Shown: positions 4,131-64,000 of the stretch, in pieces
How the letters are laid out: each line of letters starts with the position of its first letter
Position numbering within the stretch: the first letter of the stretch is position 1
Assembly: GCF_026151205.1 (NCBI RefSeq)
Contig: NC_087079.1
Coordinates: forward strand, 12,578,635-12,642,634
Reading direction: 5' to 3'
Length of the DNA: 64,000 nt
From: Bolinopsis microptera
Taxonomy: Eukaryota; Ctenophora; Tentaculata; Lobata; Bolinopsidae
Notes under the pieces: generated by a model
What the model was told of the DNA's origin: nothing
Databases searched by the model: none
Seen by the model: only the letters and a program-made list of their open reading frames with translations
Program-made: the position numbers and the translations under genes

Positions 4131-4243
4131 ATAAGGTCGCTAGTGATAAACCTTAAACCATTACCTCAAAAATGTCAATCAGTGTACAACCTCTAGTCTA
4201 ACTTTGACCCTATAATGTATAACAACGTTGAACCCTAACCCTC

Positions 4244-5397
4244 ACCAAAACCGTACGCTGAGAAATATTCAATTGTCATTGATATTCTCAAGGGCTTTAC
4301 AGTTTCTTCCAAGTCGCAAGGATTATTATATGAAAATCAATATGATTCAGAAAAATCTTTCGAAAAGCCGCACTTGACTTCCTTGTCGAATACATTGAAA
4401 AATCACTAGAGAGATAAAATTCATTGTTAATAGGCTTCTTCATTGATTTTCAGTACAAGATTTTGATACAATCTGTCATGATAAACTGCTTAAAAAACTG
4501 ATAGATTATGGAATTCGAGTCTGCAAATAAATTTATAGCCAGTTACCTCTCTAATAGGCAGCAATATGTTTCTGTACTTGGTGAGAATCCGAAAAAACTG
4601 TCTGTAATATTTGGTGTGCCTCAGGGTGTCAAGTATTAGGTCCATTGCTTTTCATTATCTACATCATGAAATTTATAGAGGTATTCAGACCTAGGTAAGT
4701 TTATACTTTTTTTGCCGATGACACCAACTACTTTGTTGTAGTTAAATGTATAAAAACACTTTACATGCAAGCATAAACAATTCATTAAAACTTGTTCATC
4801 AAATATGAAGAGTACTTGCTGATATCAACACAATGGAAAATGTTGTTATTTCACTTTAAGCACGAACTGTAGAAAATGAACCATGATTCAAACACTAAGG
4901 AATTAGAAACTGCAACTGAATAAATATAATAATTAAAAAGGTAGAGGAAAATAGTTCTTGGCGTTCATTATTGGACCAAAAACTGAACTGGGATGATCAC
5001 TGACGAGCGTTGAATCGTAATGAAATGTTGAGATCGGTAGAATATGTGGGAATCAGGTCGTGTGTACCTAAAACACTCTATAAGGACTGTACCACACCCT
5101 TTTTTGATCACAACTATGTTATGGAATATCTGTTTGGGGAGGTGTATCAAATAATAAACTAGAAGCCATTTCTAAAAACACAAAAGAAATGCATAGAATT
5201 CTCTTTGGTGATAATGATGCGTACCTTAAATAAGTTCAATACATGTGCACTGTGTCTAAGGCCTATCACTAGGGATATGACCGGTAAATTATCAAGCAAT
5301 GTTGTTAGGCAAAAGTTTCTTTGAACTAGAACACAGTAAAACCATCTGTAAGAGATAACTTCCTGACTGTCAACATACTTCATTTTTTTTTTTTTTT

Positions 5398-5479
<82 letters not shown>

Positions 5480-5797
5480 TTTTTTTAGTTGCAATGTTTA
5501 CTGGAATGTTTAATAATTTAATAAGTTCGATCACTGTCTCTATTGTTCTCTTTATTCAACAGGTCACAAGAAGAGACAACTACCTCATCCCACCCACTCC
5601 GTCCTCACTATTCTTCTACCAATAAAACAGTATTTGGAATCACTGCCGTTAAGTAACGAGTTGAAATGGCTTCTCCAATCATATCAGTATGTTCAATGAA
5701 TAATCTTAAGAAAGCTTAGTTAGAACTACAATTATAAATATGACAGCAACTATGGTGCAGTTACTACTTTGATGCAAATGAATTATCATTGAATATG
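4244..5797 (+). mobile_element. LINE reverse transcriptase, C-terminal part (unit 1)
   Basis: This is the reverse transcriptase of a CR1/Jockey-type LINE, which copies its RNA at nicked chromosomal DNA. Reading the copies column by column gives one open frame of about 480 codons. In order it has ENQYGFRKNHSTSH (RT finger motif), GIFIDLSKAFDT (motif A with catalytic Asp), VPQGSVLGPLLFIIYINE (motif B), FADDTN (motif C with the catalytic Asp pair), a KFLGVIID segment (motif E-like), then thumb and the C-terminal WNH...LWCSYNF tail. The endonuclease and the N-terminal part are absent, so the element is 5'-truncated. In this copy FADD survives at 4711-4722, but motif B is frameshifted and a 104-base poly-T tract splits the thumb region. 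It is not functional as written. Confidence 0.88.
5383..5486. repeat. Poly-T tract inserted in unit 1
   Basis: 104 bases of T with single C interruptions at 5410, 5430 and 5460. It lies in the LINE frame between the bases encoding VHNLH and KLHC, and no other unit has it. Removing it brings unit 1 to the common length. It may be the poly(A) tail of a minus-strand retro-insertion, or a sequencing artefact. Confidence 0.9.
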
Positions 5798-7799
5798 GAT
5801 AATAACTAAACTTAATCTATGAGATAAAACCAACGGTGTTATTGCAAAAACATGAATGGGTATCTGACCTATATATTAATATAAGAGACGAAACAAAAAC
5901 GAATCATCATACAACAAATTTTAAAATCTGCGGCACAGGATCTCGTTGTTTTCCTACTCTGCCTCTCCCAAACCCCTTCCTTCCCCTTTCTTCAGGTTTA
6001 TTCTTCAATTTTTTACAATTAGATAGCAGATATATTTTCTTTCGAATTAGTAATGGGATTATAATTTATTTGGTATGTATGTATGTTGTGGTTAGTGTTT
6101 GCCTAACAAGGTATGTGCTGTTATATTTTGAAGAATTTTGAGGCTCACGACGTCTCGTCACATGGGCTTTTTGAGTTGTAAGATGAGGTATATGTTTCAA
6201 ATCGCCTTACTTCGTATGGTGTGACTACATCGACAGTGTTTGCACTTGACCTTTTCCGGACGAGTGTTTGCCCATCGGGATCAAAAAATATGTCACCATG
6301 AAACATTACTTTGACACGTGAAATTATAAACGACTGTAATGATTCACATTAATTTTTCTTAGTATAATTTAGCTAGATTTTAGTTAGATACAACGATCAC
6401 AGAATAGAAGAGATCAATTGGGCTCTTGTTCTGCGACCGTGTTTAATCGGTGGGCCGAAAAGGTTTTTGTTGTGTAGTAGTGGCTGGGGAAAAAAACACG
6501 CTTTAAATATCATGTATGTAAATTTGTTAATTGGACATTAGCTGCCAACAGTTTATGTGGTAAAAAACAAATTTATGGTCAAACATTATATATCGTAGAA
6601 GGGCCAGACTTTACCCACATTCACTACGCATCTGGATGGATAATTGAGCACACAAGGATAAACTGACCTTTAAACATGACCACCAGCTATACACGTAATC
6701 ATAGCTACAAAATTAATAATTGCTCTACATTAGAAACATAAGGCTGATCTTATCACATTGTGGTTCTCCCATGGGGTTCGGTAAAGCCCTTAAGGCAACT
6801 GGGTCTCTTTTACCAGCCACAATAAAAATTGTAATGCCAGATACTGTCATAAACTGTAAACAACTATTTCAAAAATAAGATACTTTTTGCTAGAATTTTA
6901 CATTTTAAGCCATAGAGCAATCTTCTCAATTTTAAAATTTTAAATATAAACATTTTACCCTAACTATGATGTGGTGGCATTTCATACTTATCTAAAAAAT
7001 TCAACTTTGAAGTCAAATAGTTTATTAGTCACAACAAAATTATTGTTTAAGACATCCATTTTTGCATTGTGTTTCCATATTAGATTTATGATATGTATAG
7101 ATTGAATAATTGGTAATAAATTTAACTTTTGTTTTATTAACTTTTGTTTTATTAATTCAGATGTTGTTCAATGAGTTCGCCACAAAAATGTTCAAATTAT
7201 GTAGGAGGAGGTAAAGGACACAATTGCTGGCTGTGCTTCTCTTTGTGACCGTTTGACTACAATGAACATTTTGCGGGAGTTTTCAAGACGCTTTTATCGG
7301 TTCAGGCGTTGTTATTTACTGTTTTGCAAAAAGCCAGGCCAACATTTTGTTTTTGTGTTAGCCGTGCTACCAGGTTGCTGTGTATTATAACACTAAACAA
7401 TTATTACACTATACAAATTTGCTAACAAATCATGCAGATGAGTCGATCTAAGCTGGCAAACGTCAGACCACCACAGTTCAGCCGCCAAGTAACGTTTAAC
7501 GTGAAAACCGAAACACGTGGTTTTAGGTGTCATTTTGTAATCACTTTATGGTGGATTAATTCAGTAATGTTGAAAGGAAATTACAGTCACTGCCACCTAT
7601 AGCGTCTATTTCATGGGTCTGATTTAACGGCCAAGAAAATTAAAAGTACGTGCGCGCATAAGTAAACCCGCGCAAAATGTTGAGGTAGGGAGTGACTGCG
7701 GCGCGCTTTTAACATATATTACGTATTGCGCCGTACGTGAAACGGCAATATTTAGTAATTAAGTATTTGGTTTACATAAATTCCAAGTTTTTATCTTAT
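5798..7799. other. Unassigned 2-kb spacer (described for unit 1, present in every full unit)
   Basis: No known gene is recognisable. It contains: a strong pyrimidine tract ending in CAG at about 5947-5995, like a 3' splice site; a - strand stretch (about 6150-6500) where the copies together give several 40-50 codon open frames; a twice-repeated ACTTTTGTTTTATTA word followed by TTCAG/ATG (7158-7163); after that ATG, open frames of about 60 codons on both strands, none recognised; and a CpG-rich segment (about 7650-7740) with GTGCGCGCATAAG and GGCGCGCTTTTAAC words. In the other units the matching spacer carries the same landmarks. Confidence 0.6.
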
Positions 7800-8265
7800 C
7801 TAGCACTGGTCCAAAAATGTTCTAAGTTGTCATTATGCACTCATTATCGAACCTGCAATTGGGAATCTAGAAGAGATCGGTTTAGCCTTGATTTGATTGA
7901 GTTACAGGATGTGTTCATCAACGTCAGGTTTATTCTGTGGATTGGAGTCCCTTGAATTGATTTCCAAAGCCAAGAAGATTTTTAAATTAAAGTTATGGCT
8001 GGGCTTTGGTGGTATTTGCGTCATCCCTCAGTTCAGACAGGTTAAGTAAAGAGTATAGAGGATAATGGGTACCCTATTTATTTCACTATTTAAAAAGTTC
8101 AGTTATAGTACGAAGGTTTGTAAAGATTATGAACAGTAAGGAGTTATGACTGTTTAATTAATGGTTGTTGATTCTTGGAATAGAATTCAGCTCCCTAGTT
8201 TTTGACAACATTAAAGGTATAATAAGATTATTATGAACTACGATTTAGACTCCCCTAATCTTGGA
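7800..8265 (-). mobile_element. Second LINE, C-terminal fragment on the minus strand (unit 1)
   Basis: Read on the - strand, the copies together give about 160 codons homologous to the C-terminus of the + strand LINE but clearly a different family. KLGAEFYSKEST, TVHNLYKL, ELFKIVKYRVPISLYSLL, RDDRLIPPKP, IYKSSWLWNQF and LDAQSRFDNEWHNDNF align with LGKDFFELEHS, TVHNLHKL, EMFKINKFQSPVSMFSLF, RRDNYLIPPTP, IYQSTSIWNH and LELQSKYDRQLWCSYNF. The stop lies at the CTAGCA near 7800. The fragment is 5'-truncated where it meets the gene fragment, so it probably inserted there. It has no catalytic core and cannot be active. Confidence 0.75.
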
Positions 8266-8898
8266 GGCCACGTAAACACGATACTGCTGTGGCACAGCTT
8301 TCACTGGATCAGACACCACGTTGGATCAACCGGATTTGGTAAGGATCGGCTATTCTGAACGATCGCATCTATCGATGATAAGTGTATAGTTGCTTTTATT
8401 CGGCAATTTCTACAACCAGCAACCTTAACGCAGCATTTGTACGGAGAATCTTTTGATGCTGGCAGTTGATTTCATCACAATCGGATGACTATGATGAAGC
8501 TAGGGGGGGGGGGGGGAAAAACTTTCAAGTCTTGAAAACTGAAGTCGCATCTTCAACAGCAGAACATAAAGTGGAAAAGCTCCGCCAACATCTGGGCAGC
8601 TGAACTACATTCTATCTTGTTTACCATCTGCTGCAGCCGTAGATAATAATAACCTTAGATACGATAAGCTGAGGATGATAAGAAGAATAATGGGGAGCAT
8701 TGTACCAGTGACCAACTCTTATGAATACAGCTCCGAAATAGCTCATTTAAAACATCCAGTGCAAATGTTTTAAAGTCAGGTTGTGGAATGATCTGGTTCA
8801 TGCAGAAAAGCAGGAATACATTGTGGATCAACTGCCTTAAATGTCAGGACAATTGCACCAATGTGCCAGCTGAGGACTCAAAGTAGACTCTTATCTAG
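8266..8898 (+). pseudogene. Fragment of metazoan HAxTGxDT/CXC-type protein (unit 1)
   Basis: The copies read together give one frame of about 200 codons. In order: LLCHAFTGSDTTSWIHGIGK, IKHVGELLMLQL, LPPTSGTAEQHSN, VYHQLQ, then G.K and VTTLMNTAPKK, and a Cys-rich end, CNCLKSGCGNACSCRK and GIHCGSTCLKCQDNC. From memory, this order (HALTGCDTTS, LPPTxxAxxQH, WGW, CxC...CxCRK) marks a family of uncharacterised animal proteins, some labelled CXC-like. Five in-frame stops recur across copies, so it is a pseudogene fragment whatever the sequencing noise. In this copy AFTGSDTT lies at about 8297-8320 and CRKAGIHCGST at about 8801-8833. The function of the family is not known to me. Confidence 0.68.
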
Positions 8899-9160
8899 TA
8901 TATAATATGGTCATAATTATAAAGTACTGCTTCGATTTCACGATTTAATTTAGTGAAAAGTTGTTTATTATTCTGTTACGTAATTTTAAAATATTTTGAT
9001 CGGAAAATAATTTTCTAATTTTTGAATATTTGTTTATATTGATTAACTAATTAATTAATTATCTAATCAAATGGTTGTCAGATGAAAAAGTTGTTCTCGT
9101 TCCTGTTTTGAACTCATCAGTTTTAATTATAGACTTCTATGACATCAGAAGTCTTTTATG

Positions 9161-9575
9161 GCACTATACGTAGACGGAGTTAGAGTCCGCGGCGGAGCGC
9201 CGGACTCCGACCGGCGGATCCGGCGGTGCTCCGCTTAAATGTATTTACACTGACTCGAGTACAATTTTGGCGGAATCCGAGCGGAGCCGAGCGGGACTAC
9301 GAGCGGAATCCGTGCTGACTGTTAAAGTCCGCGCGGTATACGAGCGGCCTCCCGCGGCGGCTCGGCAGAGTGTCCAGACGCAGTGTAAGCCACTAGGCGG
9401 ACTCCGGGTCGCTGCGGATCCGGCGGAGTGCTTGGCGGACTCCGCCGGACCTCTCGCCGACTTGAATTCCGCCGGAGTCCACGCCAGCTAGGCGGACTCG
9501 CTCGGAGGGTCCGCCGGACTCCCAAACAGAGTCCACTGACTTCCGTCCTCCGAATTTCCGACCCTCGGCTAAATT
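9161..9575. repeat. CpG-rich block of 11-bp words and palindromes (unit 1)
   Basis: About 400 bp built from CGGACTCCGAG and its complement, in both orientations. Consensus landmarks are an AAAATGTA/TACATTTT hairpin near the left side, a central GCGGACTTTAAAGTCCGC palindrome, then CCGCCGGACTCC words. It ends in TTCCGACCCTCGGCTAAATT. Open frames through it translate to Ser/Arg/Pro-rich repeats on several frames at once, so they are by-products of the repeat and not genes. Confidence 0.88.
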
Positions 9576-9740
9576 GGTTCACCGTGACATACACACATTG
9601 CATTTTGCAATATGTGGTCAGATGAAAAGGTCGCTTCGCTAAGTGATAAACCTTAACCATTACCCTCAAAATGTCAATAGTGTACAACTCTAGTCCTAAC
9701 TTTGACCCTATAATGTATATACGTTGACCCTAAACTCCAC

Positions 9741-11211
9741 CAAAACGTCCGCCGCAGCGAAATATCAATGTCAATTGATATTCTCCAGGCTTTACAGTTT
9801 CTTCCAGTCGCAAGGCTTTATGATATGAAAATCAATATCGCTTCAGAAAAAATCTTCGAAGCCATGCACTTAACTTCTCTGTCGACTACATTGAAAAAAA
9901 ATCACTAAGAGATAATAATTCTTGTACTACGGCATCTTCATTGACATTTAAGTAAAGCTTTTAGATTACAATCTGTCATGATAACTGCTTAAAAAAAACT
10001 GAATGTTTATGGATTTAGAGGGGACTGCAATTAATATTAAATAGGACGTTACCTCTCTAATAGGCAGCCATATGTTTCAGTACTTGGAGAAGAATCCGAA
10101 AAACTGTCTGTAATATTTGGGTGTGCCTCAGGGGTCAGTATTAGGTCCCTTGCTTTTCATTATCTACATCAATGAAAATATATAGCAGTATCAGACCTAG
10201 GTAAGTTGATACTTTTTGCCGATGACACTAACATATTGTTGTTGATAAATGTATAAATAAAACTTTATGCAAAGCTAACAAAATTCTTAAACTGTTCTCA
10301 ATATATGAAGAGTAACTTGTGCATATCAACACAAAGAAATGTTGTTATATCCACTTTAAGCCCGAACTGTAGAAAGGAACCAGGTGATTCAAACACTAAT
10401 GAATTGAACTGACACTGAATATTATATAATTAAAAGGTTAGAGGTAATACTAAGTTTCATGGAGTCATTATTGACCAAAAACTGAACTGGGATGCTCACT
10501 TGAGTAGCGTTAATTAGTAAATTGAAATGTGAGATCTGGTAGACTATGTGGAATCAGGCGACGAAGTGTACCTAAAACACTCTATTAAAGACCTGTAACC
10601 ACACCTTTTTGAATCCACACCTATGTTATGGAAATATCTGTTTGGGGAGGGTGTATATCAAATAATAAACTAGAAGCCATATTTAAAACACAAAAGAAAT
10701 GCATAAGAATTCTCTTTGGTGATAATGATGCGTACTTTCAATAAGTTCAAAAACATGTGCCAGAGTAAGGCCTATCACTAGGGATAAGACCGGTAAAGTT
10801 TATCAAGCAGTGTCTAGGCAAGATTTCTTTTGAACTAGAACACTGTCAAACCAATCTGTAACGAGTATATCTTCACGACTGTCCACAATCTTCATAAGTT
10901 GCACTGTTTACATGGAAATGTTTAAAATTAATAAGTTCCCAATCACCAGTCTCAATGTTCTCTGTATTCAACAGGTCCCAAGACGAGGACAACTACTCAT
11001 CCAACCCACTCGTCCTCACTATTCATCTCCAATCAACCAGTATTTGGAATCACTGCCGTAAGTCAACGAGTGTGAAATTGACTTCTCCACTTCCTATCAG
11101 TATTTTCAAGAATAAATCTTAGAAAGCTTTGTTGAAAACAACAATCTATATATGACAGACAATATGGTGCACGTTACAAACTTTGATGCAAATGAATTAT
11201 CATTGAAATAG
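9741..11211 (+). mobile_element. LINE reverse transcriptase fragment (unit 2)
   Basis: Motif B (VPQGSVLGPLLFIIYINE) is intact at 10123-10176 and FADD at 10215-10226. Motif A and the finger region carry indels. The frame ends at the consensus TAG, 11209-11211, after LSLK. Confidence 0.88.
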
Positions 11212-13199
11212 GCTTTAATTAACTAAACTTATCTCATATGTAGTGTAAACCACGGGTGTTATTGCAAAGAACCATGACAAGGTATACAGAACCTAATATA
11301 TAATCTAAGTGACGAAACAAAAAACGAATCTTCATACTAACAATCTTTTAAAATCCTGCGGCACAGGATCCTGTTGTTTTCTACTCTGCCTCTCCAAAAA
11401 ACCATCTCCTTCCCCTTTCTTCAAGGGTTTATCTTTCTATTTTTTTAAATTAGATAGCAGATATATTTTCTTTCGAATTACGTAATGGCATTTTACATTA
11501 TTTGGTATCGTATGTATGTTGCGTTTAGTGTTGCTAACCTAGGTATGTGTGTATATTTTGAAGAATTTGAGGCTCACGACGTCTTCGTACCATGGGTTGA
11601 GTTGTAAGATGAGTACTTTGTTCAAATCGCCTTCTTCGTATGGTGAAACTTCGACAGTTTTGCCTTGACCTTTCGGACGAGTGTTTGACAACCGGGATCA
11701 AAAATATGATCACATGAACAATTACTTTGACACGTGAACTTATCAAACCGACCTGTAATGTTCCATTAAATTTTCTTAGTATATTTAGTAGTTATGAGTA
11801 GATACACACGATCACAGAATGAAGAGCACAATTGGGCTCTTTGTTCTGCCGACCGTGTTTCCTCGGTGGGCCGATCAGGTTTTGTTGTGTAGTAGTGCTG
11901 GGAGAAAAAAAACGCTTTAAAATTCAATGAATGTAAATATTGTTAATTGAATTAGTGCAACAGTTTATGTGGTAAACAAATATTATGGTCAAACATTATA
12001 TAGAGTTTAAGAAGGCATGATTAACCACATCACTAAGCATATGGATGGATAATTGCCACACAAGGATAAATCGACCTTTAAAAATGACCACCAGCCTATA
12101 CACGTTATCATAGCTCAAAATCAAATAATACTGCATCTAACATAGAAACATCTGGCCTGATATTATCCACATTGTGGTACCCTGGGGTTAGGAAAGCACA
12201 TTAACACGGCAAACTGGGTCCTTTAACTGCTCATTAAAACTAGTCCATGACGAGTTCTGTCATATACTGTAACCAACTAGTTAAAAAATAAGATATCTTT
12301 TGCTAGAATTTTACATTTTAAGCATAGAGCAATCTCTCAATTTTAAATTTATATATAACATTTTACCCTCAACTTGTGTGGTGGCATGTCACTACTTAAC
12401 TAAAATTCAACCTTCTGAAAGTCAATAGATTATTGTCACAAACCCAAAAATTATAGTTTTAGTCATACATTTTGCATTGTGTTTCCATTATTAGATTATG
12501 ATATGTAATGATTGAATTTTGGTAATAAATATGAACTTTTGTTTTATTAACTTTTGTTTATTAATTCATGATGTTGTTCAATGGTTTCGCAACAAAAAAT
12601 GTTCAAATTATGTAGGAAGGATAAAGGACTCAATTGCTAGTTGTGTTCTTTGTTGCCCGTTGACTTACAATGAACATTTGCGGTGTTTCTCCAGACGGCT
12701 TTATGGATGTGCGTGTTGTTTACTTGGTTTATGCAATGCCAGGGCAAAATTTTGTTCTTGGTGGTTAGCGTGCTACAGGTTGCAGAGTATTATAAACACT
12801 AACAATTATACACTATACTAATTTGCTATTACAATATTCATGCAGAGTCCGATCTAGTGGCAAACGTCAGGACACCTCAGTTCAGCGCAAAGTAACGTTT
12901 ACGTGAACACCGAAACACCGTGAGCTTTAGGTGTCATTTTGTAACATCACTTTATGATGGATAATTCAGATAATTGTTGATAGAAAATTACAGTCTCGGC
13001 CACTATTGCGTTATTCATGGGTCCTGATTATCGGCCAAGATTAAACGTACGTTCGCGCATAAGAAAAACCGGCAAATGTTGAGGTAGGGAGTAGCTGCGG
13101 CGCGCTTTTAAAACATATATACGTATAGCGCCGTACGGAAACGGCAATATTTAAGTAATTAAGTATTTGTTTACTAAATTCACGTTTTTATCAATAATC

Positions 13200-13660
13200 T
13201 AGCATGGATCCAAATGTTAAAGTTGTCATTATGCCACTCATTATCGAACCTGACACTTTGGCATCCTAGAAGTGATCGGTTAGGCCTTGATTTGATTGAG
13301 TTACAGGATGTGTTCACAAAGTAGTTTATTCTGTGATTGGAGGCCTTGAATTGATCAAAGCCAAGAAGATTTATATAAAGTTATGGCTTGGCTTTGGTGG
13401 TATTAGACAGGGAATCCCTCAGTTCAGACATGTTAAGTAAAGGTGTAGTGTGATATGGGTACCCTTTATTTCCACTATTTTAAAAAGTTCCAGTTATTAG
13501 ACGAGAGTTGTAAAGTTTATGAACGTAGGAGTTTATGGACTCGTTAAATAATGGTTTGGTTGATTCCTTGGAAATAGAATTCAGCTCCTAGTTTTTGACA
13601 ACTTAAGGGTTAAACAAGTTTATTTATGACTACCGATTTAGACTCCCCTAAAACTTGGAG
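13200..13660 (-). mobile_element. Minus-strand LINE C-terminal fragment (unit 2)
   Basis: Its C-terminal stop corresponds to CTAGCA at about 13200, and its truncated start abuts the gene fragment near 13660. Several single-base indels break the frame. Confidence 0.7.
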
Positions 13661-13664
13661 GAAC

Positions 13665-14271
13665 GTAAACACGATACTGATGTTGCCACGCTTTCACTGC
13701 GTTCAGACACCACCAGTTGGATCACGGAATTGGTAAGGATCGGCTCTATTCTGAACGATCGCATCTATCGATGAAAGTCGTAATAGATGCTTTTTATTCG
13801 GCAAATTCTACACCAGCAACCATAAGCATGTCGGAGACTTTTGATGCTGCAGTTGATTTCTCACATCGAGATGAATAGTCTGATGAAGGTAGGACTTTCA
13901 GTTCTTGAACAGAAGTCGCATTTTTCAACTGCAGAACATCAAGTGGGAACAGATCCCGCCAACATCTGGGACAGCTGAACAACATTCTAATATTGATTTA
14001 CCATCAGCTGCAGGAGTTAAAGATATAATAACCTAGTCCGATAAGTGAGGTGAAAGAAGAATAATGGGGCCGCATGTACCAGTGACCATATTATGTATAC
14101 TGCTCCGTAAAAGCTTCATTTTTAACATCAGTTGCAACTTGTTTAAAGTCAGGTTGTGGCAATGATTGTTCTTGCAGAAATGCAGGATTACATTGTGATT
14201 CAACCTGCCTTTAAATGTCAGGCAATTTGCACCAATGTGCAGCTGAGGATTCCTAAGTAGACTCTTATCTG
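13665..14271 (+). pseudogene. HAxTGxDT/CXC gene fragment, best-preserved copy (unit 2)
   Basis: WEQIPPTSGTAEQHSN is uninterrupted at 13944-13991 and GCGNDCSCRNAGLHCDSTC at 14152-14208, giving the clearest view of the Cys-rich motif in the window. The AFTG region is present but has a substitution and an indel (GGATCAG reads GCGTTCAG). The stretch expected to read WGW has lost bases here. Confidence 0.7.
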
Positions 14272-14560
14272 TATATAATATGGTCATACTATAAAGTTAA
14301 ATTTTGTATTCGTACTGCATTACGATTTCCGATTAATTTAGTGAAAAGTTGTTTATTATTCATGTTACGTTAATTTTAAAATATTTTGATCGAAAATAAT
14401 TTTAATAATTTTTGAAATATTTGTTTAATAATTGATTAACTTATTAATTAATTATAATCAAATGGTTAGTCAGATAAAAAAGTTGTTCTCTTTCCTGTTT
14501 TGAACACATCCAGTTTCAATCTAGAACTTTCTAGACATTCAGAAGTCGTTTTTTTATTGG

Positions 14561-14970
14561 CACTATCCTAGCGAGATAGATAGTCCGAGGCGGAGCCGAC
14601 GGAATACCGAGCGGACCTCGGCGGTGCTCGATAAAATGTATTTTTTACACTGGAATCGAGTACATTTTGGCGGACTACGAGCGGAGCCAGTTGCGGACTC
14701 CGAGCGCGACTACGAGCGGAATTTAAGTCCGCGCGGACTCCGAGGCGGGCTCCGCGGCGGCTCGGACAGAGTGTCCGCCGCAGAGTAAGCCACTAGGCGA
14801 TTCCGGTCCGCTGCGGACTCCGGCGGAGGGCTTGGCAGGACTCCCGCAGGACCTCTCAGCCAGACTTGAATCCGCCGGAGTCCGCCCAGATCGGCGGACT
14901 ACGATCGGAGTCGCCGGACTCCAACAGAGTCCACTGACTTCCGACCTACGACTTACCGAACATCGGCTAA
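14561..14970. repeat. CpG-rich 11-bp-word block (unit 2)
   Basis: Same organisation as in unit 1. The central palindrome is degraded (GGAATTTAAGTCCGC). It runs to the CATCGGCTAAATTTGTCA end marker. Confidence 0.86.
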
Positions 14971-15140
14971 ATTTGTCAAGTGACATACAAAATACGATTT
15001 TGCAATATTGTGGTCAGATGAACTGAAAGGTTCGCTAGTGATAAACCTTAACAATTACCTCACAATGTCCAATAGTGTACAACTCTAGTCATATCTTTGA
15101 CACCTATAATGTATAAACGTTGACAACCTAACCCTCCACC

Positions 15141-16600
15141 AAACCGTCGCGCAGCGAAATATCAATGTCAATTGATTATTCTCCAGGCTTACAGTTTCTT
15201 TTCCCGTCGCAAGGATTATTATATTGAAAATCAATATGGCTTCAGAAAATCATTCGACAAAGCCTTGACACTTAACTTCTCTGTCGATACATTGAAAATC
15301 ACTAAGAGATAAATATCATTGTACTAGCATCTTTCATTATTTAAACGTAAAGTTTTGATAAATCTGTCATGATAACTGCTTAAAAACTGAATGGATTATG
15401 GAATTCGAGGGACTGCAAAATAAATTAATTAGGCCCAGTTTCATCTCTAATAGCAGCAATATGTTTCAGTACTTGGAGAAGAATCCGAAAAACTGTCTGT
15501 TATTTTTGGTGTGCCTCAGGGCGTCAGTATTAGGTCCCTTGACTTTTCATTATCTACATCAAGAAATATATAGAGTATCAGACCTAGGTAAGTTCTATAT
15601 ATTTTGCCGAGGACACCAACATATTTTGTTGTAGATAAATGTAAAAAAACATCTTTCTGCAATGCTTAACAATATTCTTAAATTGTTCATCAATATATGA
15701 AGAGTAACTTGCTGCATATATACACAAAGAAATGTTGTTATATCCACATTTAGCCGACTGTAGAAATGAACAGATTCATAAACTAATGAAATTAGACTGA
15801 CACTGAATTTTATAATAATTAAAAAGGTAGAGGAACTAAGTTTATTGGAGTCATTATTGACCAAATACTGATATGGATGATTCACTTGATGAAGCGTAAA
15901 TCGTAAATTGAAATGGGAGATTGGCTTTTGACTTTTGTGGAATCAGTCGCTTTGTTACCTAAAACACTCTATTAGGACATGTACCCAATCCCTTTTTGAA
16001 TCAACACCTTTGTTATGGAATATCTGTTTGGGAGGCTGTATCATATTTAAAAACTAGAAGCACATATTTAAAACAATAAAGAAATGAATGAGAATTCTCT
16101 TTGGTCGATAATGATGCGTACTTCAATATGTTCATAAACATGTGGCAAGAGTAAGGCCTATCACTAGGATAAGAACGGTAAAGTTATCAAGCAGATGTTA
16201 GCAAAGATTTCGTTGAACTAGAAACTCAGTAAACCTATCTGTAAACGAAGTTATAACTTCCTGACAGTCCACAATCTTCATTAAGTTGCACTGTCTTACT
16301 GGTAATGTTTTAAAATTAATAAGTTCAAATCACCAGTCTCATTGTTCTCTTTATTCACAGGTCACAAGACGAGACAACTACATAATCACCCACTCCGTCT
16401 CACTTTTCATCTACCAAATCAACCAGTATTTGGAATTCACTGCACGGTAAGTCAACCCCCCAGTGAAATAGACTTCTCCACTCCTATCAGTATTATTTAG
16501 AATATTTCAGTAGGATAGCTTTGTTAGATCTACAATCTAATATGACAGACAACATGGTGCAGTTAAATAATTTGATGCAAATGAATTATCATTGAAATTG
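15141..16600 (+). mobile_element. LINE reverse transcriptase fragment (unit 3)
   Basis: Motif C reads FAED (15603-15614), replacing the first catalytic Asp by Glu. Motif B is split by an inserted base. The terminal stop is altered by substitution (GAAATTG for GAAATAG). Confidence 0.86.
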
Positions 16601-24425: not shown

Positions 24426-24430
24426 CTCGT

Positions 24431-51205: not shown

Positions 51206-51211
51206 GCACGT

Positions 51212-52661: not shown

Positions 52662-54126
52662 CACCAACCGTCCGCAGCGAAATATCATTGTCTATTGATA
52701 TTCTCAGGCTTTACAGTTTCTTCAGTCGCCAAGGATTTATATATGAAAATCATATGGCTTCAGAGAAATCATTCGACAAGCCATGCACTTAATTCTTCTG
52801 TCGGACTACATTAAAAACCAACTTAAGAGATAAAAATCATGTACTAGGCATCTTCATTGGATTTAAGTAAAGCTTTTGATACAATATGTTCTGATAACTG
52901 CTAAAAAAACTGAATGATTATCGGTATTCGAGGGACTGCCAAATAAATAATAGGCCAGATTACCTCTCTATTAGGCAGAAATAAGTTTCAGTACTTGGAG
53001 AAGAATTCGACAAAACTGTCGTATTTTTGGTGTGTGCATCAGGGTCAGTATTTAGGTCCATTGCTTTTCATTATCTACATTCAATGAAATATATAGTGTA
53101 TCAGACCTAGGTAAGTTTATTACTTTTTGACGATGACTCAACACATATTTGTTGTAGTTAAATGTATAACAAACACTTTACTGCCAAGCTAACAAAATTC
53201 TTTAAACTTGTTCATCATATTTGAAAGAGTAACTTGCTGCTATCAACACAAAGAAATGTTGTTATATCCACTTTAGCCGAACTGTTAGAAATGACACAAG
53301 TTCAAACACTAATGAATTGAACTAGACACTGAATAATATAATATTTAAAAAAGGTAGAGGAATTAAGTTTCTTGAGTATTTATTGACCAAAAACTGAACT
53401 GGGATGCTCACTTGAGGAGCGTTAAATCGTAAATTGAAATGTGAGAATGGTCTAGAATATGTGGTATCTGACGCTGTGTAACCTAAAAAACACTCTATAA
53501 GGACCTGTACCACACCCTTTTGAATCACCCTATGTTTTATGGAATATCTGTTTGGGGACGGTGAAACAAATAATAAACTAGAAGCCTATTTAAAACACAA
53601 AAGAAATGCATAAGAATTCTCACTTTGGGTGATAATGATGCGTACTTCAATAAGTTCAAAACATGTGCCAGGAGTAAGGCCTATCACTAGGGGATAAGAC
53701 GGGTAAAGTTATCAAGCAGGATGTTGGCAAAGATTTCTTTGAACTAGAACACCAGTAAACCAATTCTGTAACGAGGTATAACTTCCTGACTGTTCCACAA
53801 TCTTAATAAGTTGCACTGTTTCAACTGGTAATGTTTAAAATTAATAAGTTCCAATCACCAGTCTCAATGTTCTCTTTATTCACAGGTCACACAAGAACGG
53901 ACAACTTACCTCATCCCACCCACTCGTCCTCACTATTCATCTACAATCAACCAGTATTTGGAATCACTGCCGTTTAAGTCAACGAGTGAAAATAGAACTT
54001 CTCACTCACTATCAGTATATTCAAGTATAATCTTAAGAAAGCTTTGTTGAACTACAATCTAAATATGAAAGACAAACTATGGTGCTGCAGTTACACTTTT
54101 GAGCAATTGAATTATCATTGAAATTA
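52662..54126 (+). mobile_element. LINE reverse transcriptase fragment (unit 10)
   Basis: Motif C reads FDDD (53126-53137), an Ala-to-Asp change with both catalytic Asp codons present. Motif A has one inserted G. KTQKKCIRILTL-type sequence is readable near 53590-53630. Confidence 0.87.
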
Positions 54127-56137
54127 GGAAAATTAACTAAACTATAATCATATGAGTAAAATAAAAACCCCCCCCCCACGGTGTTATTGCAAAGAACCAT
54201 GACAAGGGTATCAAGACCATATATTATCTAAGAGACGAAACAAAACGAATCATCATACAAACAAATTTAAATTCTGCGCAAGGATTCCTGTTGTTTTCTT
54301 CTATGCCTCTCCAAAAACCCATTCTCATTCCTTTCTTCAGGTTATTCTTCAATTTTCTTAATTTAGTATAGCAGATATATTTTTACTTTCGAATTAGTTA
54401 TGGCATTATAATTTTTGGTATCGTTTGTATGTTGTGTTTAGTGTTTGCTAACTAGGTATGTGCTGTATATTTTGAAGAATTTGAGGGCTCACGACGTCTC
54501 GTCCCATGGGTTGAGTTGTTAAGCTGGTATATGTTCAATCGCCTTTCTTCGTTATGGTTGAAAAATCGACAGGTTTGCCTTGACCTTTCGACGAGTGTTT
54601 GCCCACAGGGGATCAAAAAAATATGAATCACCTTGAAACATAACTTTGACACGTGAACTTATCAAACGACTGTAATGATTCCATTTAATTTTATTAGTAT
54701 ATTAGCTAGTTTATAGTAGTTACACACGATCAAAGAATTGAATAGCACAATTGGGCTCATTTGTTATGCGACCGTGTTTTCCCTCGGTGGGCCAGAAGGT
54801 TTTTGTTTGTGTAGTAGTGAGGGGGCGGAAAAACACGCTTTAATATAAATGAATGTTAAATATTGTAATTGACATTAGTGTGCCACAAGTTGATGTGGTT
54901 AAAACAAAATTTATGTCTAAACTTTTATCGTAGAAGGGCACTGATTTACCCACATCACTAAGGCATATGGAGGATAATTAGCACAAAAGGATAAAAGCCT
55001 TTAAAACATGGACCTCCTGCTATTCAACGTACGTAATCCTAGCTCCAAAATAAATAATTGCTCTAATTAGAAATCATCTGGCTGATACTTTTCAAAATTG
55101 TGGTCCCCTTGGGGCTTCGGTTAAAGCCCTTACAGGCAACAGGTCCTTATACAGCTCCCCAATTAATCTTTGTCATGCCCAGCCAGTACTTGTCATAAAC
55201 CTGTACCAACTATTTTAAAATAAGTATACTTTTGCTAGAATTTTACATTTTAAGCCATAGAGCAATATTCTCAATTTTAAATTTAAAAAACATTTTACCC
55301 TAACTATGATGTGGTGGCATTTTCATACTTAACTAAAATTAAACTTTGGCAAAGTCAATAGATTATTAGTCACAACATTAATTATAGTTTAAGGGAATCC
55401 ATTTTGCAATTGTGTTTCCATTGATTAGAATTTATGATATGTATTGAGTGAATAATTGGTAAATAAATTAACTTTGTTTTATTACTTTTGTTTTATTAAT
55501 TCAGATGTTGTTCAATGAGTTCGCCACAAATGTTCAAATTATGTAGGTGGGTTAAAGGGACAACAATTGCTAGTAGTGATTTCTTTATTTGGCCGTTGAC
55601 TACATTGGAAACATTTTGCAGGAGTTTTCCAGACGGCTTTTATCGTGAGTGGTGTTATTTACTTTGTTATGCACAAGCCATGCCAAACATTTTTGTTTTT
55701 GTGTTAGCCGTGCTACCAGGTGCAGAGTTTTATATAACACTAAACACTTATTCACTATACAAATTTGCTAATACAATATCAAGCAGTGTCCGATCTTGCT
55801 GCAACGTCAGACACACAGTTCAGCCGCCAGTAACGTTAAGTGAACACCGAAACACGAGGTTAGTGTTCATTTTGTAAAATCACTTTATGGATGGATAATT
55901 CAGTAATTGTGGAAGAAAATTACAGTCATGCCACCTATAGCGTCTATGTCATGGGTCTGATTAACGGCCAAGAATAAAAAACGTTGTGCGAGCATAAGAA
56001 AACACCGAGCTATATGTTGAGGTAGGGAGTAGCTGCGCGCGCGCTTTTAACATTATTACGTTATAGCGCCGTACGGAAACGCAATATTTATAGTATTAAC
56101 GTATTTGTTTTCATATATTTCCACGTTTTATCAATAT

Positions 56138-56612
56138 CTTAGCATGGTCCAAAACTTGTTTAAAGTTGTCATTATTGCCCACTCATTATAGAACCTGCTT
56201 TGGGAATCTAGAAGAGATCGGTTTAGCCTTTGATTTGATTGAGTTTACAGATGTGTTCACAAAGGAGGTTTATTCTGTGGATTGGAGGTCCTTGATTGAT
56301 TCCAATGCCAGAGTTTTATAATAAGTTATGGCTTGGCTTTGGTGGTATTAGACGGTCATCCCTCAGTTCCAGACATGTTTAAGTAAAGAGTAGAGAGGAT
56401 ATTGGGTACCTTATAATTTTCACTATTTTAAAAAGTTCAGTTATAGTTACGAAGTTTGTAAAAGATTCATGAACAGTAAGGAGTTTTATGGACGTTAATA
56501 ATGGTTGGTTGATTCCTTGGAATGGATATTCAGCTCCTAGTTTTTGACAACCATAAGGGTCTAACAAAGTTTATTATGATTTTCCGATTTGTCTCCCACC
56601 TAACTTTGGAGG
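56138..56612 (-). mobile_element. Minus-strand LINE C-terminal fragment (unit 10)
   Basis: The minus-strand frame at 56379-56567 is open for 62 codons and reads KLGAEYP, then ITELFKIVK. This is the clearest single-copy view of this fragment. Confidence 0.72.
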
Positions 56613-56620
56613 CACGTAAA

Positions 56621-57219
56621 ACACGATACTGCTGGTGCCACGCTTTCAATGGATCGACACAACCAGTTGGATACAACCGCGATTTAGGTTAGGATCCGGC
56701 TTTTCAGACGATCGGCATCTATGATTGAATGTGTAATAGTGCTTTTTATTCGGCAAATTCTTACACCCAGCAACCATAAAGCATGTCGGAGAACTTTTGA
56801 TTGATGAAGTGATTTCATAACAATCGAGAATGACTAGATGAAGCTAGACTTTCAGTTCTTGACAGAAGTCGCAATCTTCAACTGCAGGACATTCAAGTTG
56901 GGGACAGCTCCCGCCACAATCTGCGGACAGCCTGAACAACATTCTAATCTTGTTTAACCATCAGCTGCAGCGTAAGATAATAATAACCTAGATCGATAAG
57001 CTGAGGATGAAAATGAATAATGGGGGATGTACAGTGACCACTCTTATGAATAAAGCTCCGAAAAAGCTCATTAAAACATCAGTTTGCAACTGTTTTAAGT
57101 AGTTGGGAATGCTTGTTCATGCAGAAAGCAGGAATACAATTGTGGATCAACCTGCCTTAAATGTCAGGACAATTGCACAATGTGCTGCTGAGGAATTATA
57201 AGTAAGGACTCTTATCTAG
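56621..57219 (+). pseudogene. HAxTGxDT/CXC gene fragment (unit 10)
   Basis: The AFTG segment is altered by substitution and deletion (TTTCAATGGATCG). TGAGGATGAAAA is conserved near 57002-57013. The GCG codons of the Cys-rich end are deleted (AGTAGTTGGGAATGC). The terminal TATCTAG is intact. Confidence 0.63.
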
Positions 57220-57480
57220 TATTTAATATGGTCATATCTAAATTACTGCTTCGATTTCACGATAATTTGAGTGAAAGTTGTTTATTATCATGTTACGTAA
57301 TTTTAAAATATTTTGATCGAAAATAATTTTATAATTTTGAATATTTGTTTTATAATTGATTAAACTAATTATATTAATTATCTAATCAAATGGTTGTCAG
57401 ATAAAAGTTGTTTATCTTTCCTGTTTGAACACATCTTTTAATCTAGAACTTTCTATGACATCAGAAGTCGTTTTTATTGG

Positions 57481-57892
57481 CCTATCCGTCGCGGGTGTTA
57501 GAGTTCCGAGGCGGAGCCGACGGACCTCCGAGCGGATTCGGCACGGTGCTCCGCTAAAATGTATGTACACTGGACTCGAAGTACATTTTGGCGGAATCCA
57601 GCGGAGCACACGAGCGAATCCGAGCGGACTCCGTGCGGACTTTTAATTCCGCCCGCGGACTCCGAGCGGCCTCCGCGGCGGCTCGGCAGAGTGCCGTCCG
57701 GCAGAGGCTAAGCCACTGGCGGACTTCCGGACGCTGCGGACTCGGCGGAGTGCTTGCGGGACTACGCCCGGAACCTCTCCGCAAAGAATTGAAATCCGCC
57801 GGAGTCCGCCCCAGCTCGGCGGACTCCGCTCGGAGTCCGCCCGGACTCCAACAGAGTCATGACCTTCTAGACCTCCGACTTCGACCCTCGGA
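57481..57892. repeat. CpG-rich 11-bp-word block (unit 10)
   Basis: Open frames on both strands coincide here (for example 57588-57896 + and 57643-57930 -), as expected for a stop-poor palindromic repeat. Confidence 0.87.
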
Positions 57893-58056
57893 CTAAATTT
57901 TTCACGTGAATTCAACATAGCATTTTGCAATATTGTGGTCAGATAAAGGTCGCGAAGTGTATAACTTAACCATTACCATAACAAATGTCAATTGTGTACA
58001 ACTCTAGTCCTAACTTTGAACCCTACTAATGTCATAAACGTTGACCCTAACCCTCC

Positions 58057-59529
58057 ACCAAACCGTACCGCAGCGAATTATCATGGCATTGATATTCTCC
58101 AGGCTTTACAGTTTCTTTCCCCTGTCGCAAGGAATTATTTTATGATTATCTATAATGGCTTCAGGAAAAATCATTCGACAAGCCATTGCACTTAAACTTC
58201 TTCTGTCGATCTAACATTGAAAAATAACTAAGGATAAAAAATCATTGTTCTAGGGGCATATTTCATTGATTTAAGTTAAAGCTTTTGATACAATCTGTAA
58301 TATAAACTGCTTAAAAAACTGAATGATTATGGATTCGTGGGACTGCAAATAAATGAATAGCCAGTTACCTCATATAATAGGCAGCAATATGTTTTCAGTA
58401 CTTGGTGACAGAATCCGAAATAAACTGTCTGTAATATTTGGTGTGCCCAGGGTCTGTATTCAGGTCCCGTGCTTTTATTATCTACATCAATGAAAATATA
58501 TAGAGTATAAGAACCTATGTAAGTTTATTACTTTTGCCGATGCAAATAACATATTTGTTGTCTGATAAAATGTATAAAACACTTTACTGCAAGCTTTACA
58601 AAATCTTAAAACTTGTCTCATCAATATATGATAGAGTTTCTTCTGCTGCATATCAACACAAAGAAATGTTGTTATATCCACTTTAAGCCGAACTGTAGAA
58701 ATGAACAGATTCAATCACTAATGACATTAGAATAACTGACAATGGAATAATATAATAATTAAAAAGGTTAGAGGAAACTAAGTTTCTTGAGTCATTATGG
58801 ACAAAAAACTGAACAGGGATGCTCATTGGGAGCGTTAAGTCGTAACATTGAAATTGTGATGGTAGACTCTGTGGAATCAGTCGCTGTGTACCTAAAACAC
58901 TTAATTAAGGACCTGTACCACACCCTTTTTGAATCTCATCTATGTTATGGAATATATGTTTGGGGAGGTGTATCATAATAGTTAAACTAGAAGAAGCCAT
59001 ATTTAAAACACAAAAGAAATGCATAAGAATTCTCTTTGGTGATATTGATGCGTACTGCAATAAGATCAAAACATGTGCCAGAGTAAGGCCTATCATAGGG
59101 ATAAGACGGTAAAGTTATCAAGCAGATGTTAGGGCAAAGATTTCTTTGAACCTAGAAACACTGTAAACAATACTGTACGAGTATAATTCCTGACTGTACA
59201 CAATTCTTCATAAGTAGTTGCACTGTTTACTTGAAATGTTTTTAAAATTATAAGTTCCATCACCAGTCTAATGTTCTCTTTATTAATCAGGTCACCAGAC
59301 GTGCAATCTACCTCATCACACCACTCCGTCAGACTATTCATCTACAATCAAACCAGTATTTGGAATCACTGCCGTAAGTCAACGAGTGAAAATAGTCTTC
59401 TCCCACTACTATCAGTATATTCTCAAGTATAATCTAAGAAAGCTGTCGTTAGAACTACAATCTAAATAGACAGACAATACTATGTGCAGTCTACAACTTT
59501 GGATGCAAAGTATTATCCATTGAAAATAG
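58057..59529 (+). mobile_element. LINE reverse transcriptase fragment (unit 11)
   Basis: Motif C lost the second Asp through indels (TTTGCCGATGCAAAT), motif B lost bases (GTGCCCAGGGTCTG), and motif A has one inserted T. The TAG stop is at 59527-59529. Confidence 0.86.
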
Positions 59530-61528
59530 GTTAACTAACTAAACTTAATCATATGAGTAAACCACGGTGTTATTGACAAAGTACCATGACAAGGGTTATC
59601 AGACCTATATATTAATCTAAGAGACGAAACAATACGGATCCTATAAACAATTTTAAAATCCTGCGGCACAGGATCTGTTGTTTTCCTACTCTGCTCTCCC
59701 AAACCCCTTCCTTCCCCTTTTCTTCAGGTTTATTTTCAATTTTTTTCAAATTAGATAGCAGATATATTTTCTTTCGAATTCAGTAATGGCATTATACATA
59801 TTTGGTATGGTGTGTATGTTGTGTTTAGTGTTTGCAACTAGGTATGTGCTGTATATGTTTGAAGAATTGAGGCTCACGACGTATCGTCCCATGGGTTGAG
59901 TTGTAAGCTGTGTATATGTTCAATCGCCTTACTTCGTATGGTGAAAACATCGACAGGTTTGCCTTGGACCTTTCGGACGGAGTGTGTTGCACAACCGGGG
60001 ATCATAAAAATATGATCACCATGAACATTACTTTGACCGGAACTTATCAAACGACTGTAATCGATTCCATTTAAATGTTTGTCAGTCATTAGTAATATAA
60101 TTAGCTGTATTAGTAGATACACCACGATCACAGAATTAGAAGAGCACAATTGGGCTATTTGTATCTGCGACCGTGTTTCCTCGTGGGCGACAGGTTTTGT
60201 TGTGTAGTAGTGCTGGGAAATAACACGCTTTAAATAACAGAATGAATGCTAAATATTGTTAATTGACATTGTTTTTTTGGCCACAGTTTATGTGTAAAAC
60301 AAAATTTATGGTCAAACATTATATATCGTAGAAGGCATGATTTACCAACATCACTAAGCATCTGGATGGATAGTTTGCACACAAGGCATAAACTGACCAT
60401 TTAAAAATGACCACCAGCTATACAAGTAAATATAGCTACAAAAATATATAATTGCTCTACATAGAAACATCTAGGCCTGATCTTATCACATTGTGGTCCC
60501 TGGGTTCAGGTATAAGACCATTCACAGGCAACTGGGTCTTTTACCAGCCTCAATAAAACTAGTCATGCCAGTTCTGTCATAACTGTAACCAACATATTTA
60601 AAAATATGATATCTTTGCTAGAATTTTCACATTTTGAGCATTGAGCAATTCTTATCAATTTTAAAATTTTAAAATACTAATTTTACCCATAACTATGATG
60701 TGTGCATTTCATTATTAAACTAAAATTCATCTTTGAAGTCGATAGATTATTAGTCACACTAAAATTATAGTTTACAGACATCCTTTTTGCTTTGTGTTTC
60801 CTTTATTAGAATTTATGATTGTATTGATTGAATAAATTGGTAATTAATTTAATTTTGTTTTATTAACTTTTGTTTTATTATTCAGAAGCAGTAGTTGTTC
60901 AATGATTCGCCACAAAAATGTTCAAATTATGTAGGAGGTTAAAGGACCACAATTGCTCGTAGTGCTTCTTTGTGCCCGTTGACTACAATGAACAATTTTG
61001 CAGGAGTCTTCTCCAGACGGGCTTTTATCGGAAGTGCGTGTTATTTACTTGGTTTTGCACAAGCCAGGCCAACATTTTTGTTTTTTGTGTTAGCCGTGCT
61101 ACCAGGTTGCAGAGTATTATAAAAACTAAACAATTTATGCACTATACAAATTTGCTAATACAATATCATGCAGAGTACGATCTAGCTGCAAACGTCAGAC
61201 ACCACAGTTCAGACGAAGTTACGATTTACGTGAAACACCGAAATATAGAGGTTTAGGTGTCATTTTTGTAAATCACTTTTAGGATGGATAATTCAGTAAT
61301 TGTTGAAGAAAATTACAGTCACTGCCACCTTTAGCGTTATGTCATGCGGTATGATTTAAGGCCTAAGCATAACGTTACGTGGCGCATAAGAAACCAGCGC
61401 TATGTTGAAGGAGAGTAGCTGCACGGCGCGCTTTTTAACATATATTACGTAATAGCGCCGTACGGAAACGGCAATATTTAAGTAATTATGTATTTGTTTA
61501 CATAAATTCCACGTTTTTATCAAATAAT

Positions 61529-61990
61529 CTTGCATGGTCCAAAACTGTTTTAGTTGTCATTATGCCTCTCATATCGAACATGCTTTGGGCATCTAGAGAG
61601 ATCGGTTTAGCCTTGATTTGATGAGTTACTGGATGTGTTCTCAAAGTCTGGTTTATTTGTGGATTGGAGTCCTTGAATTGATTCCAAAGCACCAAGAAGA
61701 TTTATAAATATAGTTATGGCTTGGGACTTTGGTGGTATTAGACGGTCATCCTCAGTTCAGACATGTTAAGTAATGAGTAGAGAGATATGGGTTACCATAT
61801 ATTTCCTATTTAAAAAGTTCAGTTATCAGTACGAGTTCGTAATGATTATGAACAGTAGGAGTTTATGGACTGTTTAAAATAATGGGTTTGGTTGATTCAT
61901 TGGAATAGAATTCAGCTCCTAGTTTTTGACAACATAAGGTCTAACAACGGTTATTATGAACTACCGATTTAGACTCCCCCTAAACTTGGA
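61529..61990 (-). mobile_element. Minus-strand LINE C-terminal fragment (unit 11)
   Basis: The minus-strand frame at 61498-61695 is open for 65 codons and reads WNQFKDSNPQ near its start, then SLDAQSMFD. The usual stop is lost by substitution (CTTGCA for CTAGCA). Confidence 0.73.
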
Positions 61991-61998
61991 GGCACGTA

Positions 61999-62615
61999 AA
62001 CACGATACTGCTGTCCCCCTGCTGTGCCACGCTTTCCCAGTTCAGACTCCACAGTTGGATCACGGAATTGTAAGGATGGCTATTAAGACCGATCGCACTC
62101 TATCGTTGTAAGTAGTAATAGTTGCTTTTTTTTCGGCAAATTCTACAACAGCAACCATTATGAATGTCGGAGAACTTTTGATGCTGAAGTTGATTTAATC
62201 TCATAATCGAGATGACTTGATGAAGCTAGACTTTCAGTCTTGAACAGAAGTCGCACAACTTCAACAGCAGGCATCAGTGGGAACAGCTCCCGCCAACCAT
62301 CTGGGCAGCTGAACACACATTCTAATCTTGTTTACCATAGCTGAGGCGTTAAGATTATAATAACATAGATACGATAAGCTGAGGATGAAAGAAGAATAAT
62401 GGGGCGCATGTTCCAGTGACCACTCTTATGGAATACAGCTCCGAAAAAGCTCTTTAAAACAAATCCAGTTGCAACTGTTTAAAGTCAGGTTGTGGCAATG
62501 CCTTTGTCTACATGCAGAAAGCAGGAATACATTGTGGATAAACCTGCCTTAAATGTCAGGACAATTGCACCAATGTGCCAGCTGAGGACTTTCATATTGT
62601 AAGACTCTTATTTAG
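61999..62615 (+). pseudogene. HAxTGxDT/CXC gene fragment (unit 11)
   Basis: TGAGGATGAAAG, where the family has WGW, is exact (TGA at 62380-62382 and 62386-62388). The PPTSGT segment lost bases (CCAACCATCTGGGCAGC). The KCQDNCTNVPAED segment is in frame near 62550-62590. Confidence 0.66.
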
Positions 62616-62880
62616 TATATAATATGGTTAAATATAAAGTACTGCTTCGATTTCCCGATTAATTTAGTTGAAAAAGTTGTTTATTAGTCCTGTCTACGTA
62701 TTTAATATATTTTGATCAGAAAATAATGTTATAATTTTTGAATGTATGTTTTATAATTGATTAATAATTTATAAATTATCTAATCAAATGGTTGTCAGAT
62801 AAAAGTTGTTCTCTTTCCTGTTTGAACACATCAGTTTAATCTAGAACTTTCTATGTCATTAGAGAAAGTCGTTTTTATTG

Positions 62881-63280
62881 GAACTACGTAGCGGAGTAGA
62901 GTCCAGCGGCGGAGCCGCCCGGCACTCCGAGAGGACTCCGGCGGTTGCTCCGATAAAATGTATTAACACTGGACTCGAGTACATTTTGGCGGGACTCACG
63001 AGCGGAGCCGAGCGGACTCCGAGCGGACTCCGAGCGGACCTTTAAAGTCCGCCGCGGACTAGAGGCGGCTCGCGGCGGCTCGAAGAGGTCCGCGCGCAGA
63101 GTAAAGCCACTAGGCGGACTCCGGTCCGCTGAGGACTCCGGCGGAGTGCTTGGCGGACTCCGCGGACCTCTCAGCCAGACTTGAATCCGCCGGAGTCCGC
63201 AGTCGGCGGACTCCGCGCGGAGTAAGCCGACTCCAAACAGCGTCCACTGACTTCCGACCTCCGACTTCCGACCCTCGGCT
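62881..63280. repeat. CpG-rich 11-bp-word block (unit 11)
   Basis: The cleanest word array: GAGCGGACTCC repeats are regular at about 63000-63040, followed by CCTTTAAAGTCCGCCGCGG (one extra C in the palindrome). Confidence 0.88.
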
Positions 63281-63339
63281 AAAATTTGTCACGTGACATA
63301 CAACATAGCATTTTGCCAATTATTTGGTCAGATGAAAAA

Positions 63340-64000
63340 GGTCGCTAGTGATAAACATTAACATTACTCACAGTCAATAGGGTTACAACTCTAGTCCTAA
63401 CTTTGACCCTTAATTTTATAACTTTGACCTTAACCCTCACCAAAACCGTCCGCAGCGAAATATTCATTGTCATTGATATTCTCCTGGCTTTACAGTTTCT
63501 TCAGTCGCAAGGTTATATATGAAAATCATATGGCTTCAGAAAAAATCATTCGACAAGCCATGCACTTACTTCTCTGTCGACTACATGAAAATCATAGAGA
63601 TAAAAATTCATGTACTAGCTTCTGCATTGATATAATGTAAAAGTTTTTTGATACAATCTGTCATGATAAAATGCTTAAAAAACTGAATGATTATGGAATT
63701 CGAGGGAATGAAATAAATTTATAGCCAAGTTACCTTCTATTAGGCAGCATATGTTTTCAGTACTTGGAGAAGATCCGAAAAACTGTCTGTAATATTTGCG
63801 TGTTGCCTCAGGAGTCAGTATTAGGTCCCTTGCGTTTCATTATCTACATCAATGAAATATATAGGAGTATTCAGGAAATACGGTAAGTTTTACTTTTTGC
63901 CGATGACACCCAACATATTTTGTTTGTTGATAAATGTATAAAAAACAACTTTACTGCAAAGCTAACAAAATTCTTTAAACTTGTTCTTCATATATGAAGT
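63340..64000 (+). repeat. Macrosatellite unit 12, first 661 bp
   Basis: The array continues past the window edge. Only the leader and the first part of the LINE are included. Confidence 0.94.
63440..64000 (+). mobile_element. LINE reverse transcriptase fragment, cut by the window end (unit 12)
   Basis: Motif B has one Gly-to-Glu and one Leu-to-Arg change (PQESVLGPLRFIIYINE). FADD is intact at 63896-63907. Motif A has several indels. Confidence 0.86.

Follow-up and report, generated by a model that had tools for sequence, protein, structure and literature searches.

Macrosatellites such as DXZ4 and D4Z4 are tandem arrays in which a unit of several kilobases (kb) is repeated head to tail and has a CpG-rich part. 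We analysed a 64,000-nucleotide stretch of the Bolinopsis microptera contig NC_087079.1 (the window), which corresponds to C8:12578635-12642634 in a 264.65-megabase (Mb) eukaryote assembly, where all genome comparisons were made. Positions 4133-64000 of the window are filled with copies of a composite unit that, in a comparison of layout and not of sequence, is like DXZ4 and D4Z4 in its length of several kb, its head-to-tail copies and its CpG-rich part. Unlike them, it consists of debris from dispersed repeats, and neither a length nor a place can be assigned to its array. An earlier reading made from the letters of this DNA (the sequence-only reading) had compared the units with DXZ4 and D4Z4 in scale only. 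The likeness holds for the head-to-tail units of several kb with their CpG-rich part; a defined chromosomal site, with the same letters on four contigs, is not established.

The second group of systems to which this stretch compares is technical. LR_Gapcloser accepts raw reads as direct input, and with these its authors report a larger number of filled gaps than with corrected reads (PMC6324547). The DENTIST authors state that repeats can cause a read to be assigned to the wrong locus and that base accuracy is lower with other closers (PMC8848313). Both raw-read input and misassignment at repeats fit what we observe here, where in addition one raw sequence appears to have been placed on four contigs. 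From the sequence comparisons that follow, we consider it very probable that window positions 4133-64000 represent a gap in the assembly that was filled with raw single-molecule long-read sequence, left uncorrected, from a tandem array of a 5,297-base-pair (bp) composite unit. The raw read, presumably of a PacBio-like type, would have come from inside such an array, a gap-closing program would have done the filling, and no fewer than three further large contigs would have received pieces of the same raw sequence. What was observed directly is the noise spectrum, the letter-for-letter agreement of the pieces fetched, the abruptness of the ends and the occurrence of parts of the unit elsewhere as clean copies.

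The noisy stretch consists of 11 whole head-to-tail units and two part units, laid out in the window as follows.

4133-4371, + strand: part unit (consensus positions 5065-5294), forming the abrupt left edge of the noisy stretch
4372-9866, + strand: unit 1, with a T run at 5383-5486
9867-26000, + strand: units 2-4, starting at 9867, 15269 and 20628
26001-31345, + strand: unit 5, the example unit for parts A-D below
31346-63562, + strand: units 6-11, starting at 31346, 36691, 42094, 47442, 52786 and 58189
63563-64000, + strand: unit 12, start only; the array goes on past the window

Spacings between k-mers in the window peak at 5.3-5.4 kb and its multiples. When window positions 26001-31380 (5,380 bp) were used as a Basic Local Alignment Search Tool (BLAST) query against the window, nine further whole copies were returned as single matches, together with unit 1 in two pieces, separated by the T run, and two end pieces; these copies, distributed across 4133-64000, have 81.9-85.6% identity to the query and many small gaps. 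The 11 raw whole units measure 5,344-5,495 bp, with a mean of 5,381 bp. We aligned these units and refined an 11-way consensus, which gives an error-corrected period of 5,297 bp; the excess of the raw units over this period, 75-84 bp, is net insertion. BLAST, k-mer spacings and the 11 cut units agree on the unit of about 5.38 kb in at least 11 head-to-tail copies that the sequence-only reading had described, and the mean spacing of 5382 given there agrees with the raw mean, although the error-corrected period is 5,297 bp instead. That reading had the array run from 4135 to 64000. The array is present, but it begins at 4133 with a part unit, and while unit sequence does fill the window to its end, it continues to about C8:12655912, some 13.3 kb beyond, making the whole array 73 kb long. 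There is no N within the 184 kb of C8 that we read around the array. The T run at 5383-5486, about 104 T long (94% T), occurs in unit 1 only and most probably reflects a read artefact.

Each of the 11 units diverges from the consensus by about 10%, with mismatches of 3.5-5.0%, insertions of 3.7-5.9% and deletions of 2.2-3.0%, and insertions or deletions of one base are frequent. The substitutions summed over the 11 units comprise 299 transitions and 2054 transversions. They are also biased by strand (A>T 868 versus T>A 154; C>A 616 versus G>T 71), and the direction of this bias is the same in all 11 units. At positions having two agreeing neighbours on each side, the rate was 5.2% for A>T and 5.7% for C>A, with other types at about 1.0% or less (measured against the first consensus). 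Pairwise distances between units fit a star (R2 0.96), leaving a residual standard deviation of 0.0013, which is below the sampling standard deviation of about 0.0037, and neighbouring units are no closer to one another than distant ones. Independent errors on near-identical units explain this divergence; ageing of the array does not.

Searches with pieces of the unit found places on C2, C3 and C13 that score the same as places in the window. These belong to three blocks held in common with C8.

35721-61791 (26,071 bp), + strand: block common with C3, equal to C3:1658638-1684708, with both ends mid-unit
49902-64000, + strand: block common with C2, lying in reverse on C2 from C2:1315357 downwards; runs past the window end
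from 54576: block common with C13 (C13:7136014 = C8:12633210); runs past the window end

The 12,371 bp fetched from the C3 block (pieces of 4,945, 2,000, 300 and 5,126 bp) are 100% identical to C8, errors included, at a constant offset. Pieces of 1,227, 2,000 and 300 bp from the C2 block, one end of which lies at C8:12628536, and of 1,790, 2,000, 300 and 300 bp from C13 are likewise 100% identical to C8, each set at its own constant offset. We bracketed the block ends with 20 probes of 300 bp: four were identical to C8 over their whole length, three were unit-like (L029, L040 and L047) and 13 held no unit sequence. The C3 and C13 ends and the one located C2 end fall at arbitrary unit positions and adjoin unrelated sequence. 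Beyond the point where the C8 array ends, C13 continues with unit sequence for about 9.3 kb, to C13:7168040; for the left 31.6 kb of the C8 array, no twin was seen among the fetched pieces and the junction matches listed. Identical noise on four large contigs points to one raw sequence that was used several times. The sequence-only reading had taken the stretch as finished chromosomal sequence, but the divergence has the spectrum of single-strand read error and the same letters lie on four large contigs, for which reasons a 5.38-kb macrosatellite at the C8 locus is not established.

The unit itself is a composite of four parts, given here for unit 5.

26001-28656, + strand: part A, the 3' part of a non-long-terminal-repeat retrotransposon (long interspersed nuclear element, LINE)
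28652-29755, - strand: part B, a 1.08-kb dispersed repeat carrying the C-terminal peptide of a related LINE
29756-30648, + strand: part C, a dispersed repeat with short open frames
30649-31253, no strand assigned: part D, a CpG-rich block made up of GGACTCCGAGC-like repeats, together with its continuation

On the consensus, part A is a 5'-truncated LINE in + orientation at about 5203-5297 and 1-2645, its first 95 bp or so sitting at the end of the preceding unit (the equivalent piece that ends unit 5 is 31249-31344). Its consensus frame matches PF00078 (reverse transcriptase) with an E value of 2.4e-24 and covers about two thirds of that domain (profile positions 28-165 of 205), and a clean genomic copy (L017) has an open frame of 582 amino acids through the same region. 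In encoding reverse transcriptase, part A is like LINE families; unlike an intact LINE, it is 5'-truncated and joined to several other pieces. Eight of nine clean LINE copies have in common a sequence that lies upstream of where the unit begins, so the truncation belongs to the unit. Part B occupies consensus positions 2641-3722, and its - strand peptide has 41% identity to the C-terminal peptide of part A over 108 aligned positions. Parts C and D together span about 3722-5205, with the CpG-rich block near 4600-5000. Both are dispersed in the genome, where the copies listed include three inverted pairs of part C and at least three of part D. The presence of two different but related LINE fragments in opposite orientations, A (+) and B (-), and of a CpG-rich block had been correctly read from the letters. 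A captured gene fragment had also been proposed; part C, with its short open frames, is a possible fragment, but no gene was identified in it, and one of its peptides, 73 amino acids long, had no Pfam match at E 0.1. Three of the six peptides searched against Pfam gave no match of any kind, and the candidates L27_1 (E 0.0032) and Myosin_TH1 (E 0.079) were set aside as falling below the curated cut-offs. Rfam at its gathering score and ARAGORN found nothing in the window.

Clean copies of these parts occur elsewhere in the assembly, and they agree with the consensus rather than with single units. Four clean LINE copies (L015-L018) match the consensus at 99.1-99.3% identity, and a clean part B copy matches it at 97.9%; whole raw units have 88.6-90.5%, compared with 97.9-99.3% for the consensus against its closest clean copies. 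We also searched the genome with two junctions of the unit, scoring 40 of 458 candidates for the C/D junction and 40 of 155 for the B/C junction; the resulting counts are minimum numbers, and the search could have passed over a clean copy, though such a copy should rank high, as one place on C7 did. The C/D search gave 41 rows, 39 of which are unit copies at 86-91% in six noisy places (C8 13, C13 6, C2 5, C3:1.66M 5, C3:21.07M 6 and C12 4), while the other two, at 98-99%, are one non-array place on C7. At this place, C7:3888662-3891644 (L057), C and D are joined in clean form; the main pieces are 97.6-99.3% identical, one 305-bp piece is 93% identical, and about 1.4 kb of extra sequence lies inside. 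It may be near the source of the C/D part of the unit. In the B/C search, 37 of 41 rows span the junction at 80-92%, and the remaining four, at 93-98%, match dispersed copies of one side in part; no joined B/C junction in clean form is among these matches listed, from the 40 of 155 candidates scored. The search against the source genome that the sequence-only reading had suggested did return clean dispersed copies of the parts, but the array copies it returned are noisy and lie in six places.

Two of these six places, C12:4532299-4548682 and C3:21070319-21103654, carry the same unit in tandem with noise that differs from that of the C8 units. They are about 90% identical to the consensus where fetched, contain four and six C/D junctions, respectively, and are likely to be further raw-read fills. 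Because these stretches show the unit order with different noise, a tandem array probably exists in the organism.

The left edge of the array adjoins sequence of another kind.

1-3440, no strand assigned: left flank without unit sequence
3441-4131, + strand: 11-bp satellite, (GTAAGTGTGGT)n, about 63 copies

Window positions 2006-4131 have a paralogue about 190 kb downstream, at C8:12772801-12775074, with 97-99% identity, and in the satellite part the match reaches base 4131 at 98.7%. Since the match holds up to that base, the flank from 2006 and the satellite look clean, and the noise begins right after them. Past its own 11-bp satellite, the paralogue has no unit sequence in the 5 kb fetched. 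The C8 array has satellites at both edges, the right side passing into another satellite. Just past the array end, at C8:12655913-12656566 (13 kb past the window), lies about 0.65 kb of a roughly 50-bp minisatellite that looks noisy on inspection, its runs containing many additional bases, and then becomes two or three regular copies. Its error style looks unlike that of the array, and it perhaps derives from a second read.

Other histories can be set against the raw-read fill. In one, C8 holds an old and genuine macrosatellite in which drift has carried the units about 10% away from the ancestral sequence, and blocks of it were later segmentally duplicated to C2, C3 and C13. Tandem order and letter-identical blocks on other contigs would both be expected from it, and a small excess of variants common to at least three units, described below, also fits. 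Segmental duplication of an old array should nevertheless bring divergence that is transition-rich and strand-symmetric, whereas the excess of transversions and the 5- to 9-fold strand bias seen here are unlike germline mutation. The star distances lack a neighbour effect, and the common blocks, where their ends were located, stop abruptly in mid-unit at unrelated sequence. Moreover, the consensus is 99% identical to several dispersed copies of the part A LINE, which an old array could not be. We regard this history as extremely improbable. It is also improbable, if less so, that the tandem order is an artefact of the template, such as a rolling-circle or circular molecule, with no chromosomal array behind it. 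The lack of a clean joined B/C junction among the 40 of 155 candidates scored would fit an artefact, but an unresolved array is a usual reason for missing clean copies, and the C12 and C3:21.07M stretches carry the unit in the same order with their own noise.

A further possibility is a sub-case of the gap fill and does not exclude it: a genuine, young and homogeneous array could lie at C8:12.58 Mb and have been correctly bridged, with noisy letters, the other three places being false. C8 does hold the longest copy (about 73 kb), including the left 31.6 kb for which no twin was seen, and the satellites at both edges are as at a real assembly break. However, C8 leaves unit sequence at about 12655912, whereas C13, having the same noise before this point, carries on with units, which makes C8 look like a cut piece itself, and the paralogue of the left flank passes its 11-bp satellite without any unit in the 5 kb fetched. 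We regard a correctly bridged array at this place as less likely than not. Assembly duplication had been raised in the sequence-only reading as the way in which its array could prove false; the stretch was apparently duplicated between contigs by the assembly, but the tandem order is found at C12:4.53M and C3:21.07M with other noise as well. What was read into the gap was, with fair likelihood, a young and highly homogeneous array of the 5,297-bp unit, composed of four dispersed repeats, with at least 13 units in one assembled stretch, which the assembly left unresolved. This array would sit at some place in the genome, and its units would resemble one another much more closely than the printed letters suggest, with an expected divergence of well under 2%; its place, copy number and true divergence cannot be read from the window.

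Several observations weigh against a fill of pure read noise. Outside A>T and C>A, 18 of the 5,297 columns have the same alternative base in at least three of the 11 units, where about 0.7 would be expected from independent errors; eight of these are shared by at least four units and ten by exactly three. C>A is likewise found in at least four units at eight columns versus about two expected. Some real variation or context-dependent error is thus present in the units. Six of the eight columns outside A>T and C>A with an alternative base in at least four units lie in runs of one base, and as evidence of true variation these columns are weak but not zero. Some clean copies lie further from the consensus: among the nine LINE copies, those in L020 have 97.5% and 98.2% identity, one in L019 has 94.2% and that in L021 has 93.7%, and two part C copies in L058 have only about 92%. 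Only one end of the C2 block was located. The strand bias relative to the unit keeps its direction at C12 (5 versus 1 and 12 versus 2) and at C3:21.08M (14 versus 0 and 13 versus 1), although the assembly has one of these two stretches in reverse orientation; reads made independently from either strand would not have to share a direction of bias, so few reads may be involved. Finally, a literature search turned up no paper linking an A>T and C>A signature to a named platform.

If the raw-read fill is correct, repeat counts, array dating, segmental duplication calls and gene annotation would be misled at six places in this assembly, and what looks like the age, frameshifts, copy number and position of the units is, on present evidence, technical. 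A strand-biased spectrum, star distances and identical noise at several loci together allow other assemblies to be tested in a simple way for fills of this kind. For the organism, the underlying array may be a recently amplified, lineage-specific macrosatellite. It would probably have arisen by tandem amplification of a C and D stretch that was already composite, together with a 5'-truncated LINE and another LINE piece in reverse. Once located, the real array would offer a clean, if ordinary, example of joined transposon debris that was amplified in tandem.

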